The translations under genes were made by a program, and so were the position numbers. Shown here piece after piece: positions 2,005-31,533 of a stretch of DNA of 33,408 nucleotides. The first letter of the stretch is position 1. Every line of letters begins with the position of its first letter. The notes beneath the pieces were generated by a model. It saw only the letters and a list, made by a program, of their open reading frames with translations, was not told the DNA's origin and did no database searches. This DNA is from a virus. The DNA lies in IMG/VR virus record IMGVR_UViG_3300047560_000557, positions 1-33,408 of that record. The stretch is one strand, 5' to 3'.

Positions 2005-3062
2005 TCTGTAGTGTCTCCTTCTTCTGGTTCAACACTACTTATCACTTCTGGTTTGTATTCGCTCATTACTGTATCTAAGCATCCGCCTTCATTTGATTCC
2101 CAACCCTTGCGGAAGAACTTAAGAATCTCACCGTTCTCGGTTGTGTATGTCAAGCGATTGCCTTCTTTCTTCAACGTACCTTTGGCTTCAAACAAGTCAG
2201 TCAAACCACTATATGGATTCATACCTGTTTCATATGGAATCTTAACTTGCATAGTTTCAAAAGGCTTTGCGTAGCGTGTTTTCATAATCTTACACGCGGC
2301 ACGAATACCTCTTACTTCGCTAATCTTGTTACCATCTTCATCTTCTTTTAGTTTCAATTTCTTCATAGCAACTAGAATACTAGATGCGTAGACGAAACCT
2401 TGACCACCTGATACTTTATCATCTGGGTCAAACATATCTTGTGATGCGTATGTGTGATTAGTTGCAACCATACCGATGCCTAGAGAACCAAACATATTTA
2501 CACAGTTACGAACAAGCGCCGCAAGTGCTTTAGGCTTGCGACCCATATCACCCTTCAAGTCACCTGCATCAAACTGGTTAACGTCAGTTGGTGTCAACAA
2601 CATACCTAATGAGTCAACCACGAACAAGACCTTTGGTCTATCTTCTGGTGGCAATGTTTTATAATCTGCTACGAACTTTGAGATTGTCTTTGCGACATCA
2701 TCAATCATAGCCATGTTTAATTTGAGCAGTTTGTCTTCCGACGTATCCACGCCGAGGTTGTGCAACCAAACTTCATCCAGGGCATTCTCTGAGTCAACAA
2801 GCACCACATAGATACCTTGTTCTTGTGCATGTTTGATAAGATTTCCTGAACAAATATAGCTTTTGCCAGAGCCGCTTTCTCCAGCGAATACAGTAACTTT
2901 ACCCAAAGGAACGCCTTTGTTAAAATCACTACTAATAAGATAATTGAGTGCATAGTTTCCTGTGCTAACCCAGTCTGTAGGATCGTTGAATCCAATTGAT
3001 ATTCCCTCTATACTTTTTGTTATTTCTTTTCTAAACTTACTTACGTCAAATGGTTTTCCCAA
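2001..3062 (-). CDS. uvsX: UvsX/RecA-family recombinase
   Basis: A 353-residue RecA-fold strand-exchange ATPase that would form filaments on ssDNA for recombination-dependent replication and repair. Walker A is GESGSGKS (61-68), Walker B is VLFVVD (145-150), and the DSE segment at 90-92 carries the likely catalytic glutamate. Length is in the range of T4 UvsX (about 390) and RecA (about 350), with a short acidic C-terminal tail as in RecA. An AAGGAG site lies upstream of the ATG. It heads the uvsX-acidic protein-uvsY string, with the SSB gene just upstream. Confidence 0.95.
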   Translation of the reverse strand: MGKPFDVSKFRKEITKSIEGISIGFNDPTDWVSTGNYALNYLISSDFNKGVPLGKVTVFAGESGSGKSYICSGNLIKHAQEQGIYVVLVDSENALDEVWLHNLGVDTSEDKLLKLNMAMIDDVAKTISKFVADYKTLPPEDRPKVLFVVDSLGMLLTPTDVNQFDAGDLKGDMGRKPKALAALVRNCVNMFGSLGIGMVATNHTYASQDMFDPDDKVSGGQGFVYASSILVAMKKLKLKEDEDGNKISEVRGIRAACKIMKTRYAKPFETMQVKIPYETGMNPYSGLTDLFEAKGTLKKEGNRLTYTTENGEILKFFRKGWESNEGGCLDTVMSEYKPEVISSVEPEEGDTTE

Positions 3063-3082
3063 TTCGTTCTCCTTAAATATAC

Positions 3083-3316
3083 TTATTGTCTATGCACTAC
3101 ATTAGTGTACGCAGTCATAGGTTGTTTATCAAGCATGTCCGGGCATTTGTCTGCCATACAATCCAATTCATAATCAGATGGAAAGTGTCGCAATGCACCT
3201 CGTGCGCGGTCACGCACTATGCTTGGAACCCTAGGTGTTTTGCCAGGGTCACATAGTTCTTCCAATAGTTTTCTACCTTGCTTGAGGCTTCGGTATCTTT
3301 CATCTGGCATTGTCAT
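3083..3316 (-). CDS. BPSL0761-like small protein
   Basis: A 77-residue protein beginning MTMPDERYRSL, with a conserved-looking PRVPSIVRDRA and LRHFPSDYEL core. This pattern (MP-ER-R start, then VR--A--LRH-P) matches my memory of the BPSL0761 family, small proteins of unknown role that are common in Burkholderiales chromosomes. Its presence in a phage suggests acquisition from a betaproteobacterial host. It sits between the SSB and uvsX genes with a good ribosome binding site (AAGGAG). Two cysteines near the C-terminus (Cys-x-x-x-x-Cys region) are of unclear meaning. Confidence 0.6.
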   Translation of the reverse strand: MTMPDERYRSLKQGRKLLEELCDPGKTPRVPSIVRDRARGALRHFPSDYELDCMADKCPDMLDKQPMTAYTNVVHRQ

Positions 3317-3329
3317 TACATACTCCTTA

Positions 3330-3354
3330 ATGGGGAGAGGTTTCCCCCTCCCAT
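3330..3354 (-). terminator. Imperfect GC-rich hairpin after the SSB gene
   Basis: On the minus strand ATGGGAGG and CCTCTCCCCAT pair with one bulge, shortly after the SSB stop codon and just before the ribosome binding site of the next gene. There is no T tract, so it may be a partial terminator, an mRNA-stabilising 3' structure or a translation modulator. Confidence 0.35.
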
Positions 3355-3359
3355 TTCAA

Positions 3360-4364
3360 TTAAGCAGATTTGTTTTGACGGGCACGAATCATTGCTAGAA
3401 TGTCGTTAGCCTTATCGCCACTAGTTGCTTTTGGAACTTCGATTGGTGATGTTGCTGCTTCTGCCGCATCTTCTTCCCAAGGTTCAACTTGTTTAGCTTC
3501 TGCTACGGGTGCTGTTGCGGGTGCGCTAGCTTGTGCTGGCGCTGCTGGTTGTGCCGCGGTTGAACCTGCAGGTGCTTCTAAACCATATGGACGGTAGTAG
3601 TTGCCCCAACGTTCGTTGTCGAATGGTTGACCATCTACTGATGCTTCAAACATTTCTTTGATGATATTCAACTCTGCCGCAGTAGGCTTCTTAGGCAAGA
3701 ACTCTGCTAAGTCAAACAAACCATGTGCTTCGATAGCGGCTTGTTCTGCCTCTGTCAATGCTGATTCACGGCGTGACCAGTTACTTGTTGAATAGTCTGC
3801 GTAACCACCCTTTGTAGTTTTCTTGATGTTGAAGTCAAGACCACGTAGATAATCGGTTGGTAATTCTAAGATTTCAGGATCCATCAAACCAGCTTTAACG
3901 ATTGGGATGATTTGTGGGCTGATGATGAATCGGCGAATTGGGTTCGCTGGTGTCTTGTCATCGCCAAGTGGGTTTTGACGAACAAAACCTTGGAACAAGT
4001 ATGAACGCTTCTTCCAGTACTTGTTAGCCATTTCTTTCAAACTCTCGTCTTTGTACCATGGACGAACTTCTGCCAAGATAGGGCAACTATCACCATACAT
4101 TTCAACGCAAGGAACTTGCACGATTGTTTGTTTGATGTTAGGATCACCTTTGACACCATTGAATGGTAGCTTGATGATTTGCTTTTCTACCCAGAAGAAA
4201 GTGTTGTTTGGATTGCCATCTGGCAAGAAACGGATACTAGCTGTAGTACCTTCGTCCATGTTCCAGTGGGGGTAAACTGAGTTGTCAGATTGTTGGTTGC
4301 TTGAACCAGTTGACTTGTTTTCTTGCGCTGCAATACGAGCGCGGATTTCTGCTAATGATGCCAT
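3360..4364 (-). CDS. gp32-like single-stranded DNA-binding protein
   Basis: A 334-residue protein with the layout of T4 gp32: a short basic N-terminal helix (LAEIRARIA), a core with aromatic and basic residues, an Ala/Pro-rich linker (about 267-300) and an acidic C-terminal part. T4 gp32 coats ssDNA and recruits UvsX/UvsY. The core segment VPCVEMYGDSCPI (about 85-96) corresponds to gp32's zinc region, but only two cysteines (86 and 94) are present; the CxxC pair and histidine of T4 are missing. The extreme C-terminus (IRARQNKS) echoes the N-terminal helix. Two promoters of different class lie upstream. Confidence 0.85.
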   Translation of the reverse strand: MASLAEIRARIAAQENKSTGSSNQQSDNSVYPHWNMDEGTTASIRFLPDGNPNNTFFWVEKQIIKLPFNGVKGDPNIKQTIVQVPCVEMYGDSCPILAEVRPWYKDESLKEMANKYWKKRSYLFQGFVRQNPLGDDKTPANPIRRFIISPQIIPIVKAGLMDPEILELPTDYLRGLDFNIKKTTKGGYADYSTSNWSRRESALTEAEQAAIEAHGLFDLAEFLPKKPTAAELNIIKEMFEASVDGQPFDNERWGNYYRPYGLEAPAGSTAAQPAAPAQASAPATAPVAEAKQVEPWEEDAAEAATSPIEVPKATSGDKANDILAMIRARQNKSA

Positions 4365-21449: not shown

Positions 21450-21577
21450 CAGATAGCCTCGTAATCTTCTTTACCTACGCCGCATTCAGGGCATTCGAAT
21501 GTCTCAGGCAAATCTTCCCATTTACCTTCAGTGGCTTCGTCATGTACGTGACCGCATACTACGCATACGTGTTCCAT
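21449..21577 (-). CDS. Rubredoxin-like electron carrier (42 aa)
   Basis: A 42-residue protein with two CxxCG knuckles, CVVCG (5-9) and CPECG (about 29-33), ending GKEDYEAI, close to the rubredoxin VCPxCGVGKDxFE signature. Rubredoxin binds one iron through four cysteines and passes electrons to rubrerythrin. It is about ten residues shorter than usual (shortened loop between the knuckles). The ATG overlaps the rubrerythrin stop by one base, so the two are co-translated. Too short for most gene finders' cut-offs. Confidence 0.85.
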   Translation of the reverse strand: MEHVCVVCGHVHDEATEGKWEDLPETFECPECGVGKEDYEAI

Positions 21578-22026
21578 TATAGACCTCCTAGTACTTGTTT
21601 GTAAGCATTAGCGTGACGTTCTTCAACTTTCTTCAAAGCCGTGAAACGCTTTTCTGCTTTTGCTAGAACTTCTTTGAATTGTTCTGCATGTTCTTTAGAT
21701 TCGGCAGCTTGATCCATCGCTTCTTGTGCGGCTGCATCATTACCTTCTCGCCATGCTTCATCTTGCATACGAGGATACATTTCTGTAAATTCGTATGTTT
21801 CACCTTCGATTGCCATTTCTAAGCATTTGCGTGTGTCTGGCTTACCGATCAACAATTCCAAGTGACCCCATGCGTGTAGAATCTCTTGGTCTGCTGTATG
21901 TTCAAAATGCTTTGCTACTTCTTCAAAGCCTTCAGCACGTGCAAGTTTCGCAAAGTAGCGATACTTGATGTGAGCCATTGACTCACCGGCTAATGCGCTT
22001 TCCAGATTTTTTAGTGTTACTGACAT
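21577..22026 (-). CDS. Rubrerythrin-type diiron protein
   Basis: A 149-residue ferritin-like four-helix protein of the rubrerythrin family, which reduces peroxide. Ligand-bearing segments: GESMAH (N-terminal helix), DQEILHAWGH, GETYEFTEMYP and SKEHAEQF, giving the expected E/ExxH sets. The usual C-terminal rubredoxin domain is absent here and supplied by the next gene. I start at MSVTLKNLE, preceded by AAAGGA; a longer in-frame start would run into the upstream gene. It may protect the infected cell from peroxide. Confidence 0.9.
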   Translation of the reverse strand: MSVTLKNLESALAGESMAHIKYRYFAKLARAEGFEEVAKHFEHTADQEILHAWGHLELLIGKPDTRKCLEMAIEGETYEFTEMYPRMQDEAWREGNDAAAQEAMDQAAESKEHAEQFKEVLAKAEKRFTALKKVEERHANAYKQVLGGL

Positions 22027-22423
22027 TAGTTTTTCCTTTAAGTGTTTTAAGTCGGTCAAGTAAAGATTCTGTCTTAGTGACTTCTTTAGCAACCTTCTTG
22101 GGTTTTTGGTGCGCTACGTGGGAATCGAACCCACTCCTAGAAGGTTTAGAATCTTCTGCTCGTCCTGTATGAGCCTCTAGCGCAAATTCCTTCAAACGAT
22201 TGATTTGCTCGTGTTTGACTATTATAACATTTTTTACAACGTCATCAATCTTAATGGGCAAATCTAAATGAACTGTAATGAAGGGACCATCAGTTTCATT
22301 AAGCTGTTTGTCGTTTCCGACTGTGCCGATGAATGGTATGCCCTCATATCTACCCAACACTCTATCACCTAAATGATAGGTTGCTTTGTACGTTACATTG
22401 GCAAAATATTCTTCATACGTCAT
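21983..22423 (-). CDS. Conserved phage protein whose frame spans a tRNA (146 aa)
   Basis: The first 80 residues (YHLGDRVLGRYEGIPFIGTVGN, then HLDLPIKID and VKHEQINRL) look like a real domain, a pattern I recall from uncultured T4-like phages. Residues about 81-107 are the translated sense strand of the tRNA gene at 22107-22183, with no stop in frame; the remaining 40 residues are Lys-rich. It also overlaps the rubrerythrin start. The protein may have gained its C-terminus when the tRNA moved in, or the RNA may be cut out of the mRNA. Confidence 0.6.
   Translation of the reverse strand: MTYEEYFANVTYKATYHLGDRVLGRYEGIPFIGTVGNDKQLNETDGPFITVHLDLPIKIDDVVKNVIIVKHEQINRLKEFALEAHTGRAEDSKPSRSGFDSHVAHQKPKKVAKEVTKTESLLDRLKTLKGKTNVSNTKKSGKRISR
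22107..22183 (-). tRNA. tRNA with CUA anticodon (amber suppressor type), CCA encoded
   Basis: A complete 77-base cloverleaf. Acceptor GCGCTAG / GTAGCGC (six pairs plus a G-G mismatch at 7-66); D stem GCTC / GAGC with GG in the loop; anticodon stem GAAGA / CCTTC (four pairs plus A-C at 31-39) and seven-base loop TTCTAAA, giving T33 and anticodon CTA; five-base variable loop; T arm GTGGG TTCGATT CCCAC; A73 and encoded CCA. Position 8 is A instead of the usual T. The CUA anticodon pairs with UAG. No other seven-base loop register gives a workable stem. The amino acid it carries cannot be read from this. Confidence 0.75.
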
Positions 22424-22581: not shown

Positions 22582-23505
22582 TTAGAACTTGTGGATCATA
22601 CCAACTGCAACTTGCTTGATATCGTTTGCTGTGCCTGGGGCATTAACATGACGATACATTACTTGTGCTGTAGTACGTGCGCTGAAAACATAATCTGCGC
22701 CTAGGTTGTAAGCACGTGTATCACCTACACCAGCTTCATTCTTCTTACCATTTGTAGCCTTCAAGACAAATGGTGTGCCAGTGATTGGCTTCGCAACACC
22801 ATATGATAGTGCTTCTGACTTAACACCTGCTGTTGTGTCTGTGCTACGGATAGCTGACAAACGATAGTCTTGCAACATGTACACTAGACCCAAGATGTTT
22901 GTCTTGTCGTGTGTAGTATTGTCTGATTGCCAATGTGATGCATCAATCTTAAGACCTGCAACGTTTGCGATTGCACCATATGATTTAGTATCAGGTGTGC
23001 CAGGAACGTTTTGGCTGAACTCATAAGATGCTGTTACGTTAGGCATCAAGTTTGCTTTAACGAATGTACCGTTTGACAAACGACCGCTGTCACGGAACTG
23101 ATGCAAGTCAGCCGCTGTAGATGCGTACAATGCACCGAATGTATCAGTGAAACGCAATGTATTGAATGCTGAGTGATAGCTACGACCTAAGTCGATGCTA
23201 CCTAAACTGTTTGCCAAACCAACTGTAGATTCACGGTCACCTAACTGTGTCGTGTTACCAGTTGCTTTTGGATCGTTAGCTAAAATCTTGGTGTCAACGA
23301 ATGCACGTGCCTTCAAGCCATTGCCCAAATCTTCTTCACCGCGGAATGCGATGTTGCTTGTTGGGTCTGCGCCAACTGAGTGAGTTAATACGCCACCTTT
23401 AGTAGTGGAATCAAAATACTCTGCAATCTTACCAGTTACAGTAACTTGCGCTGATGCAGTCATTGCTGATGCTGCCAATAGTGTCGCTAATGCGAATTTC
23501 TTCAT
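22582..23505 (-). CDS. Outer-membrane porin of betaproteobacterial type
   Basis: A 307-residue porin with a clear signal peptide (MKKFALATLLAASAMTASA, cleaved before QVTVTGK), alternating amphipathic strands (FRGEEDLGNGLKARAFVDT, VGLANSLGSIDLGRSYHS) and a C-terminal Phe (GMIHKF), the sorting signal for the outer-membrane assembly machine. The pattern is that of general porins of Burkholderiales, somewhat shorter than the usual 330-390. Porins are trimeric channels. It stands alone between its own promoter, with a 40-base leader and AAAGGA site, and a strong terminator: a cargo-gene layout. Confidence 0.93.
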   Translation of the reverse strand: MKKFALATLLAASAMTASAQVTVTGKIAEYFDSTTKGGVLTHSVGADPTSNIAFRGEEDLGNGLKARAFVDTKILANDPKATGNTTQLGDRESTVGLANSLGSIDLGRSYHSAFNTLRFTDTFGALYASTAADLHQFRDSGRLSNGTFVKANLMPNVTASYEFSQNVPGTPDTKSYGAIANVAGLKIDASHWQSDNTTHDKTNILGLVYMLQDYRLSAIRSTDTTAGVKSEALSYGVAKPITGTPFVLKATNGKKNEAGVGDTRAYNLGADYVFSARTTAQVMYRHVNAPGTANDIKQVAVGMIHKF

Positions 23506-26373: not shown

Positions 26374-26420
26374 AAGATTTCCTTATACATATACAACGCA
26401 CTAGCTATCTATCCCGTTGA

Positions 26421-26445
26421 CAAAAGGAAACCTGCCGAAGCAGGT
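26421..26445 (-). terminator. Intrinsic terminator of the tmRNA gene
   Basis: ACCTGC / GCAGGT with a UUCG tetraloop (26430-26445), followed by TTCCTTTT. It closes the tmRNA transcript that starts near 26852. Confidence 0.85.
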
Positions 26446-26487
26446 CCTGAGTTTCTGTTACGAGGTATTTCTTACCCTAAGCAGCGT

Positions 26488-26520
26488 TTAGGCTGCTAAT
26501 GCAAAACTTTCGTCATTTGC
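26488..26520 (-). other. tmRNA tag reading frame (ANDESFALAA)
   Basis: Eleven codons, GCA to TAA. The tag ANDESFALAA differs from the E. coli tag ANDENYALAA at positions 5 and 6 only; the final LAA is the ClpXP degradation signal, so tagged proteins should be degraded by the host protease. Confidence 0.93.
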
Positions 26521-26607
26521 GTTTACTTTATTTTCTTCTTTTTACATCGTTGCTGATGTGCTGTCCACTCTGTTACTCTTTGCCCTGTCGAAACCATGAC
26601 AGGCCCA

Positions 26608-26775
26608 TCATAAGAAAACTTTTCTATAGACTGGATGAAACTTATCATTGAGTTTTATGTGTGGTATTCTAAACAACACATAATAACATTTTTTGGCAAT
26701 TTCAAACCCCCAACCAATATAGATGAGACAATAAAACAAACCAATAAGTATCCATTCTAGTATCCATTCTTTCAT
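26608..26775 (-). CDS. 55-residue membrane protein encoded inside the tmRNA intervening segment
   Basis: An ORF with an AAGGA site eight bases before its ATG, starting 13 bases after the CCA end of the acceptor piece and ending (TGA) one base before the mature 5' end of the coding piece. It encodes an amphipathic start (MKEWILEWILIG), one hydrophobic span (about 6-22) and a basic, aromatic C-terminus. It fills 168 of the 181 intervening bases. It has no relative I know. The clear ribosome binding site and exact fit argue for a real gene. Confidence 0.65.
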   Translation of the reverse strand: MKEWILEWILIGLFYCLIYIGWGFEIAKKCYYVLFRIPHIKLNDKFHPVYRKVFL

Positions 26776-26858
26776 TAAACTTCCTTATGGTGGACCTGGC
26801 GGGAGTCGAACCCGCGTCCAGAACACTTTTCTCTTTGCTTCATACAGCAATAACCCAT

Positions 26859-26887
26859 AATATATCACAGTACCTAAATACTGTCAA
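26859..26887 (-). promoter_or_regulatory. Sigma70 promoter of the tmRNA gene
   Basis: TTGACA (26882-26887), 17-base spacer, TATATT (26859-26864). Expected start near 26852, about 37 bases before the T arm. Confidence 0.85.
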
Positions 26888-27001: not shown

Positions 27002-30000
27002 TTATTTATGCAGTTTTGTATAATGTTCTTTCAACCATGCCCAGTCGTAACTCTTACGCAACTGTTCAAAGTCTCCGTTAACAGTCTCATAGTATCTACA
27101 TGCATCTAACGCACCCATAGTACTAAACTCTCCGAACTCCCCGTCACCCATGTTAATCCATGAACTTAGTCTGAACTTAGCTTCTAGGTCGTTGTTGTGC
27201 TCATTGTAGTATTTCAACTTCAATGTCTCTCTAAACGCTGTACGCCAGGTGTCCCATGCACTAGAGTTATACATAGCAATACCTGAATTGATATCAACAA
27301 TCTCATGCTCACTATCCATAGTAAAGTCTAAGCCTACTGGGTTAGTGTTTAATGTTAGTTTCTTGTTGTTCGCAACCATAGCCATATGACCATACTCTAG
27401 TCCATTGACTGGATTAGTTGCTCTAAAGATATAGTGCTTGGGTATCTGTAGTCTATCGGGTTGCCAATCAAAGTCGAACTTATCATTCACTTTAAGTTTA
27501 GCATTCACTAAGAAGTACCACGGTGTTTCGCTTGCATTAGCAGCGGCGTGTTGACTAGCTACACGACCTTGTACTCCGTCTACTCTTACTACTCTATTGT
27601 CTAACCCAGCAGTCAAGAATATCAAGTGTTCATAGTTTTCATCAGCACATGCTTCCCCGTTACTAAAGAACACAATGTCTAAAGGTTTGCTAGGGCTTAA
27701 TTTATCAGATACTTTGATATACGGGTAATCGTATAGTTCTTTCTTTACAAACTCTCTTACTTCTTTAGGAACAACAATAGTACTTGCGCCATTCGATGTA
27801 ACGTAGATGCTCTTAGTATCTCTTTCCCATAGATTAAGAATTCTATCTCCTCTGTCGTAGGTTGTTTCAGTTTGGAAGATTGCGTAAGGAAACTTAAACT
27901 CTTGTTGAATCGATAGACAATGTGTGTCATCTGATACATCAATAATCGGACAGGGTATTCTCGTAACATTTTGGTGATTGTTAAAGTTGATTTTGTCATA
28001 GTCTTCTAGTATCGTTAATTCGTCTATCAATGAACGTAGCTTGTTTACATTCACTAAGAATGTATCGCCGAACTTTTCTTTGTTGCTAGGAAACACATGT
28101 AGTTGTTCTTTAGCATATGGATCACAAATGTATGTGAAGTCGAACCCACTATAATCACATATAGAACTAATCACCCACACATACTGCTCACGGGTGTCAG
28201 GTAGTTGTTTCAACAGTTCTCTGAATGTGTTTAGATAACTAGTGTCATACTTAACAACGTAATCACCTGTCATTGAATGCTCGTTCTCATGGTCAATCAA
28301 TACTGTAGGATATAGTTTCTCAACGGCTTTAGTGCGCTTACTCTTTACAAAGTTAAGAATGTTTAGATGCTCGATGACCTTAACATACTTTGTTGATTCT
28401 TCAAACGTTTCTTTGTTCACTAAGAACGTAGTTCCCCAGTGACTCCATTGTGTTCCGAACACATGAACCATGTTCATTTGCCATGGGCTAGGGTAGAAGT
28501 CAAACTTGAACTCAGTGTAATCAATCTCGCTATTCAATACCCAGAATAGTTTTGTCTCTGATTTGTTACAGCATCGTTGAATCGTTTCAACCCAACTGTT
28601 CAAGTATCGTGTACGTTGTAGTTGTGGGTATCTTTCTTTGAGACTGTCAAATCTATCTCTACCCAATCCCCTATCAACATAGAACATACTCACGTTAGTC
28701 TCTAGTTCTAACTGTTTATCTTCTACGTAGTTAAGTTCTTTGTGTCCTAGTTTGTACATAGGACCGTTCACAAAATACGTTTGTGTGTTCTTGTTCTCTG
28801 AGTTACCAAATACGTTTATGTGTCTAAAGTTTTCGCTGTCGGGCTTCCAATCAAAGTCAAAACTATCATAGTTCAAGTCAGGGTTCAACGCCCAGAATAC
28901 TTCGTCTAAGTGTTCGTTGATTAAGTCTGTGATATCAGTCTTAATGTAGTATTTGTTAACCTTGCTGATACTGTTCTCGATAGAGTATTCCATCAACACT
29001 ACATCTGTTGCACCCTCTACTGTATAGCAGGGTCCATTGTGTTCCCACTGATAGATTTGAGGAGGACTGAATGGATTAGGTCTCCATGAGTAATCAAACG
29101 ATTCATCATTCATGTTATTCCATCGTTCGACTTCAGGCTTTGTGATAGCAACTACGTCTGTTACATACTTTCTTTCAGTTGCGCCCGGTACTCTATACTC
29201 TAGCGTATCTTCTACGGTCGCATCATTCCATTTATTACCGAACACATAGATAAACGGTGGACTCAATGGATCAGGACGCCATGAATAGTCAAACGATTCT
29301 ACAGGAAGAATCTCTTTGTACTTACTCATATCAGCTAACGGAATAGCTAATATATCGTTCATGTACTTTCTTTCAGTAGCACCCGGCGTGTGATATTCTA
29401 TCGTAGGCTCACGCTCTGCGTTATTATACTTGTTACCCCATACATATATGAACGCAGGCTCACGTGGATCAGGACGCCATGTGAAGTCAAACGTATCTTT
29501 GTCTACGGGTATTAGTTCTTTCCACAACGACCATTGCGGAACTACTTTAACATCACCCATGTACTTTCTATCAGTTGCACCCTCTACGTGATACTCTAAT
29601 GTAGGTTGTATCTCAGCGGGGATATACTTGTTACCCCATGTATAGATATAAGGAGGGCTGTGTGGGTCTGGTCTCCAACTGAAGTCAAAACTCATATCAA
29701 TCGGGGTTAGTATCTTCCAATTGCTTTTTAGTTTAACTGGCTCTACATCCATTCTATACACAAACGTTTCTACGTCTTGTCTAGGGCATAGCCATGTACC
29801 GCTATCATTACTGACGGTAGAGGGCCATGCATTGTTAAACTCTTGCATCCATACATCTTCATCAGGAAGAAAGTCAAAGTCAAAGTTCCAATCAAAGTCT
29901 CTATAGTCACATTCATCATTGACTATCCAGAAATGCTCTGTAGTGGACAATGACCTAGCATGTGCTAAGTCATTTGCCTTTTGTTCTCTTGGGTGTGCAT

Positions 30001-30037
30001 TCGGCTTACTGCCGAAATAAAATACATCTCTTAACAT
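27002..30037 (-). CDS. 1011-residue repeat protein with glycosyltransferase-like C-terminus
   Basis: The motif F(D/K)(F/Y)xW occurs at least eight times (near 48, 117, 183, 249, 314, 393, 510, 632 and 854), usually followed by PDP/PDS and (I/H)(Y/N)VFGN. Four copies at 117, 183, 249 and 314 are tandem units of about 66 residues with EYH(V/T)PGAT-RKYM ends. The last 230 residues (DIVFFSNGEACADENYEH, HAAANASETPWYFLVNAKLKV, NPVNGLEYGH, AWDTWRTAFRE) resemble, from memory, a phage protein family related to GT-A glycosyltransferases, but the DxD position reads NAK. It overlaps the carbamoyltransferase stop by one base. Confidence 0.75.
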   Translation of the reverse strand: MLRDVFYFGSKPNAHPREQKANDLAHARSLSTTEHFWIVNDECDYRDFDWNFDFDFLPDEDVWMQEFNNAWPSTVSNDSGTWLCPRQDVETFVYRMDVEPVKLKSNWKILTPIDMSFDFSWRPDPHSPPYIYTWGNKYIPAEIQPTLEYHVEGATDRKYMGDVKVVPQWSLWKELIPVDKDTFDFTWRPDPREPAFIYVWGNKYNNAEREPTIEYHTPGATERKYMNDILAIPLADMSKYKEILPVESFDYSWRPDPLSPPFIYVFGNKWNDATVEDTLEYRVPGATERKYVTDVVAITKPEVERWNNMNDESFDYSWRPNPFSPPQIYQWEHNGPCYTVEGATDVVLMEYSIENSISKVNKYYIKTDITDLINEHLDEVFWALNPDLNYDSFDFDWKPDSENFRHINVFGNSENKNTQTYFVNGPMYKLGHKELNYVEDKQLELETNVSMFYVDRGLGRDRFDSLKERYPQLQRTRYLNSWVETIQRCCNKSETKLFWVLNSEIDYTEFKFDFYPSPWQMNMVHVFGTQWSHWGTTFLVNKETFEESTKYVKVIEHLNILNFVKSKRTKAVEKLYPTVLIDHENEHSMTGDYVVKYDTSYLNTFRELLKQLPDTREQYVWVISSICDYSGFDFTYICDPYAKEQLHVFPSNKEKFGDTFLVNVNKLRSLIDELTILEDYDKINFNNHQNVTRIPCPIIDVSDDTHCLSIQQEFKFPYAIFQTETTYDRGDRILNLWERDTKSIYVTSNGASTIVVPKEVREFVKKELYDYPYIKVSDKLSPSKPLDIVFFSNGEACADENYEHLIFLTAGLDNRVVRVDGVQGRVASQHAAANASETPWYFLVNAKLKVNDKFDFDWQPDRLQIPKHYIFRATNPVNGLEYGHMAMVANNKKLTLNTNPVGLDFTMDSEHEIVDINSGIAMYNSSAWDTWRTAFRETLKLKYYNEHNNDLEAKFRLSSWINMGDGEFGEFSTMGALDACRYYETVNGDFEQLRKSYDWAWLKEHYTKLHK
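27003..27010 (-). promoter_or_regulatory. Late-like motif CATAAATA
   Basis: CATAAATA overlapping the TAA stop of the 1011-residue gene and ending four bases before the 31-residue gene's ATG; it sits in the small palindrome TGCAT-AAATA-ATGCA. Confidence 0.4.
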
Positions 30038-31533
30038 TATGATATCACACGAATTCCATATAGTGCTTCAAATCTATCTGCATCTTCTCTATCATTGACC
30101 ATTGGCTCGCCTCTGATGTTTAAACTCGTGTTGAGTAGCATAGGGCATTCAGTCATTACATACCACTTCTCTAGTAGTTCTCTGATTCCTGATCCATCTT
30201 TTGGCACAGTCTGGACACGACTAGTCCCGTCGTGATGAACGATAGCAGGAAATAAGTCAGGGCACCTGCAAGTAGCGATGACTTGCATGTAGCGACTATC
30301 ACGCCAATTGTCAGGCATAATAAAATACTCGTCAACCAACTCTTCCAGAATAACTGGCGCAAAGGGTCTGAATTTTTGTCTACGTTTAATTTCATTTACT
30401 GTCTCCTTAATCGTGCTGCCTCGAGGGTCTGCAAGGAGCGAACGGTTTCCGAGTGCACGAGGGCCGAACTCTGCTCGACCGGATGCCACACCCACAATTT
30501 GCTTAGTAAGTAACTCACTAAGGATGTCATTAACAGGATAATTGCCAGGAATATTATGCCCAAGATAAGCACTCCGAAAGTCAATTCTACCCCCATACCC
30601 CAAAGCGGCAGCACCAAGGCTACTACCAGCATCACCGGGATTAGGCATAATCCATATATTATCGAATTTCTGTCCGAGGAGTCTGTTCGCACTACAGTTG
30701 AGGGCGACACCACCTCCATAAACAAGGTTTTTACTCTTTCCATACACTCTTGCCTTTTGCATTACTTGCATTATCAATTGTTCTACAAGTAGTTGACTAC
30801 TAGCGGCAATGTCCATATTGTCAGCGCCATCTAAGTAAGTATTGTCAACACCTATGTGCAAGTTATGCTTAAACTCAAGGTCACTGCTAGATTCTAACAG
30901 ATCCATATGCATTTGAGCATAGTGTTTGGGTTCACCGTATGCAGCCATACCCATCATAATATACTCTTCATCCATGGGTGCCAAACCCACCCGTTGTGTC
31001 ATTGCACTATAGAACAATCCAATGCTGTTAGGGTATTTATTACTGTACAGTTTCTTGTACTGCGCCTTACCATTCTTATAACAGGCATCCCATATAGTTA
31101 TAGTATCGAACTCTCCGATTGCGTCAATCACAACGACGGTAGCATCAGTGAATGGACTCGTTTGAAACCCTGCTGCCGCATGACTCAAATGATGATTATG
31201 TGTATGAATCTTGCCGCCGCGACCATCTTGTAACTGATGCAACACACCCTTACCGATGATATTACTAGCAAATAAATTAGCAATACAAGTATCTTCACCC
31301 GCACGTAACTGACGTAGATACTTCATAAACGGGCGCTCATAGTAATGAACTTCAATATCATGTCGGTCGTCTATGTAATTCATAGCGTCCTTGACGATAT
31401 CAATGTTCAAGTACTTTGTGTGCTTATTGCCGCAATATCTCTCACTGTGGCTAGCGAACGTAATCTCACCCTTGTCACTGACAACTGATAAAGCGGCATC
31501 ATGGAAGCCGCAACTGATTCCGATATAATCCAT
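30037..31533 (-). CDS. NodU/CmcH-family carbamoyltransferase
   Basis: A 498-residue O-carbamoyltransferase that moves a carbamoyl group from carbamoyl phosphate via carbamoyl-AMP to a hydroxyl, as in Nod factors, tobramycin and cephamycin synthesis. N-terminal Kae1/TsaD-like domain: GISCGFHDAALS (5-16), HHLSHA metal site (114-119), VIDAIGE (135-141), GGGVALNC. C-terminal domain: GRAEFGPRALGNRSLLADPR, FRPFAPVI, DGTSRVQTV and LLNTSLNIRGEP. All hallmarks are intact. It lies between small and large accessory genes of the same strand; the likely acceptor is a sugar or modified base. Confidence 0.93.
   Translation of the reverse strand: MDYIGISCGFHDAALSVVSDKGEITFASHSERYCGNKHTKYLNIDIVKDAMNYIDDRHDIEVHYYERPFMKYLRQLRAGEDTCIANLFASNIIGKGVLHQLQDGRGGKIHTHNHHLSHAAAGFQTSPFTDATVVVIDAIGEFDTITIWDACYKNGKAQYKKLYSNKYPNSIGLFYSAMTQRVGLAPMDEEYIMMGMAAYGEPKHYAQMHMDLLESSSDLEFKHNLHIGVDNTYLDGADNMDIAASSQLLVEQLIMQVMQKARVYGKSKNLVYGGGVALNCSANRLLGQKFDNIWIMPNPGDAGSSLGAAALGYGGRIDFRSAYLGHNIPGNYPVNDILSELLTKQIVGVASGRAEFGPRALGNRSLLADPRGSTIKETVNEIKRRQKFRPFAPVILEELVDEYFIMPDNWRDSRYMQVIATCRCPDLFPAIVHHDGTSRVQTVPKDGSGIRELLEKWYVMTECPMLLNTSLNIRGEPMVNDREDADRFEALYGIRVIS

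Follow-up and report, generated by a model that had tools for sequence, protein, structure and literature searches.

Two-piece tmRNAs encoded by phages have been published together with Methylophilales phage Melnitz; according to the tmRNA text of that report, the isolate collection of 2021 contains 53, of which 50 are aquatic (PMC9004378). The text available on a curated tmRNA database counts 79 sequences from phages. It notes a tRNA-Ala inside the intervening sequence of one permuted gene and a repeat in another, and refers to protein genes in tmRNA solely within group I introns (PMC11915505). Here we describe a permuted tmRNA gene in a T4-like phage that has an apparent protein-coding frame, which we refer to as cargo, in the segment between its two halves. 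The gene lies in a 33,408-nucleotide stretch of DNA (positions 1 to 33,408 of IMG/VR record IMGVR_UViG_3300047560_000557), the whole of which is called the window below. In carrying a protein gene in a part of the pre-tmRNA that would be removed, this arrangement resembles the group I intron tmRNA with a homing endonuclease; it differs in that LAGLIDADG genes in the latter sit in a self-splicing intron of the T loop, whereas the phage frames occupy the spacer between permuted halves and are varied (PMC11915505). The permuted tmRNA with tRNA-Ala likewise has another gene inside its intervening sequence, but it is one case with a tRNA gene, and the available text on it does not mention protein cargo (PMC11915505). 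Melnitz (MZ577097) is similar to the window in having a permuted tmRNA in a T4-like phage and differs in its alpha-type backbone, in a glutamine riboswitch noted in the tmRNA text (PMC9004378) and in a cargo unrelated to that of the window. The betaproteobacterial permuted tmRNA (Rfam accession RF01850) shares piece order, T arm, acceptor stem, tag type, pseudoknot and 3' hairpin with the window, but the bacterial permuted tmRNAs that we sampled have spacers of 7-46 nt without such ORFs, in contrast to 181 nt with an ORF in the window.

The permuted tmRNA gene of the window lies on the minus strand, from 26887 to about 26426. ARAGORN calls a permuted tmRNA at 26397-26880 (minus strand) with the tag ANDESFALAA, and cmscan matches the RF04321 tmRNA_permuted family at 26849-26488 (120.3 bits, against a curated threshold of 47) and the full length (1-331) of the RF01850 beta_tmRNA family at 26890-26426 (110.4 bits, against a threshold of 84; E = 5e-33). 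These matches bear out the original prediction of a complete circularly permuted tmRNA, which had been made without a strand and had named the permuted Infernal models and a pseudoknot as checks. As it had also described, the acceptor half (CAGGTCC-ACCA, ending at 26788) stands 5' of the coding half (GGGCCTG, starting at 26606) on one strand, a T arm and the G3-U70 pair are present, and the tag is encoded as stated. The acceptor piece (26788-26852) comprises the P2 5' strand, the T arm, the acceptor 3' strand CAGGTCC and an encoded ACCA, as placed by the RF04321 and RF01850 alignments, with a 5' end predicted from the promoter. The coding piece (26426-26606), delimited by the full-length RF01850 match, holds the acceptor 5' strand GGGCCTG, GGTTTCGAC, the tag frame (ANDESFALAA plus TAA, 26488-26520, from ARAGORN), the pseudoknot and the 3' hairpin. 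Across the break, GGGCCTG and CAGGTCC form a 7-bp acceptor stem, of which relatives have many compensated versions, as collected with a script that demanded at least six of seven pairs. An H-type pseudoknot spans the tag stop at 26476-26496 (S1 GCAG/CUGC, S2 CCUAA/UUAGG). Its S1 stem covaries, being fully paired in 51 of 57 loci of like layout in the versions GCCG/CGGC, GCAG/CTGC, GCTG/CAGC and GCGG/CCGC. With this pseudoknot and the model matches, the original prediction survives the refutation test it had set for itself. The tmRNA anatomy at this locus is far beyond chance. A group I intron form of tmRNA was considered and rejected, as the T loop is intact and cmscan finds no Rfam intron family.

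Control signals of its own, another element of the original prediction, flank the gene. A sigma70-type promoter (TTGACA-17-TATATT with TG ahead of the -10 element, 26859-26887, minus strand) scores 11/12 in a consensus scan, the best among seven sites in 3 kb, and predicts a transcription start near 26852; the tmRNA gene of a related IMG/VR locus (L091) has a similar type of promoter ahead of it. At the other end, a terminator-like stem-loop with a short T run lies at 26422-26447 (hairpin 26447-26428, then CCTTTT). Two parts of the original prediction fared less well. A tmRNA in a T4-like phage is not as unusual as it supposed, as phage permuted tmRNAs have been published (PMC9004378) and are common in IMG/VR, where our scan for this type of tag found at least about 80 permuted genes in 100 contigs. 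Its suggestion that the phage might redirect tagging finds no support in ANDESFALAA, which, with its LAA end, is a tag of ordinary betaproteobacterial type. No SmpB gene was found in the 11 phage records searched, the window and Melnitz included, and the tmRNA would thus rely on host SmpB.

Between CCACCA and GGGCCTG lies an intervening segment of 181 nt (26607-26787, minus strand), which appears as an insert in both Rfam alignments and is predicted to be removed at maturation. It reads TAAGGAAGTTTA-ATG...TTC-TTA-TGA-T and contains an ORF that was absent from the original prediction. A Shine-Dalgarno (SD) sequence, AAGGAAG (26780-26786), precedes this frame, MKEWILEWILIGLFYCLIYIGWGFEIAKKCYYVLFRIPHIKLNDKFHPVYRKVFL (26608-26775), which would encode 55 aa with one hydrophobic stretch and whose TGA stop ends one base ahead of the coding half. 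The probability that this segment alone would be open by chance is p = 0.012, and searches of IMG/VR, Pfam and PHROGs gave no homologue of the 55-aa ORF. From its SD, its frame, the position of its stop and the general pattern in relatives we infer that it is coding. The ends of the segment are complementary: the 5' strand of a putative processing stem, UAAGGAAGUUU (26777-26787), holds the SD and forms an 11-bp duplex with the 3' strand, AAGUUUUCUUA (26611-26621), which coincides with the final codons of the cargo ORF.

Pairing of the ends is a general property of these segments. Folded with their cognate partners, they reach a mean of -8.7 kcal/mol vs -3.6 kcal/mol for swapped partners, and the own partner is preferred in 81 of 83 segments. 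Stems of cargo-bearing segments are weaker than those of empty ones (-7.6 vs -10.0 kcal/mol, p = 6e-5). In the window and most cargo loci the SD falls within the stem, a position that could hide it from the ribosome. Most cargo clusters stop at a conserved TGA|T; in some loci the frame ends 12-13 nt before that point or reads on into the coding half.

Cargo frames recur in related phages. We searched IMG/VR for a T arm followed by CCACCA and AGG..ATG and added loci from other searches; two scans were conditioned on SD plus ATG, so that there only the sequence after the ATG is tested. Among the distinct segments listed in the SD-ATG set, which includes homologous families and whose members are thus not all independent, 53 of 55 stay open as far as the coding half, where dinucleotide shuffling predicts 8.2. 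A scan with the alpha-type T arm lists 50 of 76 segments as open (7.5 expected). Some unfilled alpha segments do hold frames on inspection: one (L342) has a GTG start, and two (L329 and L353) have two overlapping ORFs, the second of which ends at the cut site. In these two and their relatives, the first ORF has a GDSDEEPSSKK-like or EGQNDDPDP-like stretch, and the second encodes a membrane peptide and terminates at the RNase P site. The remaining two frames are open in just 3 and 9 of 117 segments. In a tag-based scan, an SD-led ORF was called in 9 of the 52 distinct segments listed, a few of these calls being artefacts; most tag-scan segments have no recognised SD-led ORF, and cargo is therefore not required for the tmRNA. 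Over all phage loci collected, cargo is present in at least 158 of the 275 listed and falls into at least 53 peptide clusters. An initial survey by regex overlooked long spacers and variant T arms, and three spacers (L091, L178 and L219) were missed by ARAGORN and recovered by a pairing-based search. Viral origin was checked for 18 IMG/VR contigs; a T4-type terminase is present on eight of these, including cargo contigs of 278-363 kb.

Several cargoes belong to known protein families. One spacer encodes a thioredoxin (L178; Pfam accession PF00085, 4e-21) inside an RF04321 match of 136 bits, and another a staphylococcal-nuclease homologue (L219; SNase, Pfam accession PF00565, 2e-12) inside an RF04321 match of 113 bits; both ORFs lie directly 3' of TCCACCA and an SD. 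Further cargoes include DUF2061 proteins (4e-20) at two loci (L340 and L360), a PGDYG domain (L138, 3e-6), a match to phrog_419 (1e-11) and a 44-aa protein of phrog_13558 (L004, 7e-11), a family whose members in cultured phages, Acidovorax phage ACP17 among them, are ordinary genes. Comparison of coding sequences indicates purifying selection on six cargo families of relatives, with pooled pN/pS values of 0.15 for a 122-aa family, 0.19 for 24-aa membrane peptides, 0.26 for a Cys-rich family, 0.30 for the Melnitz family, in which the length difference is eight whole codons, and 0.43 and 0.41 for two smaller families. Separately, one spacer ORF (L345, tmRNA at 2815-3396) encodes a 119-aa cargo with the motifs LYHAT...GLGG...VYLALDP that has no Pfam match and looks by eye like an ADP-ribosyltransferase or a Tpt1-type fold.

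The distribution of cargo suggests that it moves as a module and that the slot behaves as an exchangeable site. All 13 full-length copies found of the 122-aa ORF lie in tmRNA spacers, on both alpha- and beta-type backbones with differing tags, and several further cargo clusters are common to both backbones. Identification of this 122-aa cargo as an acetyltransferase was not sustained (Pfam match below threshold, model pLDDT of 65, and a weak best PDB E value of 0.017); with several acetyltransferases among its top weak PDB matches, the modelled protein is GNAT-like at most.

Melnitz provides an example in a cultured phage. Its spacer contains GGAG followed by an ORF, MFKWLSKTRLVVITRDYFRERNRKADAKIPKYLSGTRSV..., that starts MFKWLSK and runs into the coding half. 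Chance openness of this frame has p = 0.03, and at least 18 IMG/VR relatives keep both its SD and its place. The ORF is absent from the annotated features of MZ577097, and no mention of it was found in the tmRNA text of the Melnitz report (PMC9004378). Other isolates in which ARAGORN finds a permuted tmRNA are HTVC008M, RcXuper, vB_RpoS-V10, RcSimone-Hastad and Cp1R7A-A1; reading through the spacers of HTVC008M, V10 and RcXuper gave no obvious cargo ORF.

Bacterial spacers were compared in a modest sample of 22 distinct sequences; they come from species genomes and from a search of 300 genomes of one order, of which just 17 were above the family cut-off. These spacers are 7-46 nt long, and the three ORFs called in them merely read into the coding half. 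None of 84,980 bacterial species genomes matches the CCACCAWAAGGA..ATG pattern after a T arm; the same pattern stripped of its SD-ATG part finds 51 stretches in species genomes, showing that the bacterial scan works. No description of coding spacers in permuted tmRNA was found in the open-access literature, so that protein cargo in the spacer seems to be the new part of this system, apparently undescribed before.

The window otherwise has the character of a T4-like phage genome, as originally proposed, with a gp17-like terminase, UvsX, UvsY and a gp32-like ssb. Its terminase shares about 50% identity with the terminases of the jumbo phages PA5oct and Phosso. Upstream of the tmRNA lies a gene for a 1011-aa protein (27002-30037, minus strand) without a Pfam or PHROG family and without an isolate-phage relative; the protein has repeated FDFDW-like stretches, and its gene lies close to a permuted tmRNA in most of the relatives identified. 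Five IMG/VR contigs carry relatives of it at 44-51% identity, four of them with a permuted tmRNA, and in L091 the tmRNA is present with the same local order as in the window. That the tmRNA is kept near this gene across relatives marks it as a resident gene of this phage group. Spacer content around the 1011-aa gene varies, with a 55-aa ORF in the window, a 122-aa ORF in L091, a 44-aa ORF in L004 and almost nothing in L005. The 393-aa downstream neighbour had no relatives in our searches, and a search of isolate phages for close relatives of this tmRNA gave no more than short matches for the window and one other locus (L127) and none for a third (L360).

We propose, with a probability of roughly 0.8, that a single transcript gives rise to two products, a two-piece tmRNA and a small protein of the phage. 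The primary transcript would start at the sigma70 promoter, cover the acceptor piece, intervening segment and coding piece in turn, and end at the terminator-like hairpin. Its acceptor 7-mer would pair with the GGG 7-mer, the ends of the intervening segment pairing directly above. Cuts on either side by host RNase P and tRNA 3'-end enzymes would then free a two-piece tmRNA that could be charged with alanine and, together with host SmpB, rescue ribosomes during infection. The AAGGA on the 5' side of the stem may also recruit a ribosome, which would translate the ORF that ends at the TGA beside the RNase P site. A segment kept short by bacteria would thus serve as a small gene in phages that borrows the tmRNA promoter, its product in the window being the 55-aa protein. 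The tmRNA anatomy, pairing, covariation, ORFs, selection on several cargoes and homology of some are evident in the sequences compared, and from them we infer cleavage, tmRNA activity, translation and a role for the window's protein. More tentatively, the discarded spacer might be a dedicated, exchangeable expression slot in T4-like phages, in which cargo translation is physically coupled to tmRNA maturation and the precursor acts as a switch between rescue RNA and protein; we consider this stronger version possible, with the odds against it.

The simplest competing account is that this is an ordinary phage permuted tmRNA whose spacer ORF is a chance open frame that goes untranslated. In its favour, the window ORF has no homologue, its openness taken alone has p = 0.012, and many phage permuted tmRNAs have ORF-free spacers. 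Yet the frame has a good SD at normal spacing (5-10 nt) and a stop exactly at the cut site, the same layout recurs in over 100 distinct spacers (53 of 55 listed are open, against 8 expected), and relatives display purifying selection and known protein domains, all of which makes a chance frame improbable. Another account retains the tmRNA halves as mere processing signals that give a stable small mRNA, the tmRNA itself no longer serving rescue. Cargo turnover in genes whose tmRNA frame is retained would suit it; it is nonetheless very unlikely given that -AA tag ends, G3-U70 and a covarying pseudoknot are kept and that cargo-free phages retain the tmRNA. Host tmRNA genes are common integration sites (PMC11915505), which lends some initial plausibility to a bacterial contaminant or a host tmRNA fragment from an integration site. 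That origin can be practically dismissed: the window contains T4-type core genes, the tmRNA stays next to the 1011-aa gene in several phages, contigs of 278-363 kb that carry cargo also encode T4-type terminases, and the closest bacterial tmRNA in the sample matches over just ~70 nt, at 82-83% identity.

A regulatory device, in which cargo translation and tmRNA maturation exclude or tune each other, would add to the dual-product transcript rather than exclude it. The location of the SD within the stem, seen in the window and in most cargo loci, the stop at the RNase P site (at TGA|T in most clusters) and the weaker stems of cargo-bearing segments all point in this direction. Against it, the cargo (thioredoxin, nuclease, membrane peptides) is too varied to fit a single regulatory logic, not every stop coincides with the cut site (some come 12-13 nt sooner, some within the coding half), and the stem may serve processing alone, as in ORF-free spacers. 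By analogy with ArfA, such a device might extend further: the released spacer RNA would end one base past the stop, and trimming could turn it into a non-stop message subject to the tmRNA itself. Taken together with this extension, we regard the device as rather unlikely.

If one transcript does yield a two-piece tmRNA and a protein, a gene class treated as non-coding RNA would hold a second, protein-coding gene in its presumed waste in many phages, and cargo would explain why many phage permuted tmRNAs have long spacers. At least 53 clusters of small phage proteins would then be found at a predictable address, and the locus would offer a defined system for competition of translation vs RNA processing on one transcript. 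The example in the cultured phage Melnitz makes these ideas testable now.

Several minor features of the surrounding genome are recorded here. A tRNA with a CUA anticodon, amber-suppressor-like, lies at 22107-22183 (minus strand; tRNA-Pyl by ARAGORN, 40 bits with the Rfam tRNA model); just 1 of the 41 window ORFs has a TAG stop, and read-through there gains nothing. A Nol/NodU-like carbamoyltransferase gene (phrog_1601; 30037-31533, minus strand) adjoins the 1011-aa gene in the window and in three related contigs (L003, L004 and L006). The window also encodes a Gram-negative porin (Pfam accession PF13609, 2.5e-24) at 22582-23505 on the minus strand, here in a T4-like phage and near a rubrerythrin gene (21577-22092).
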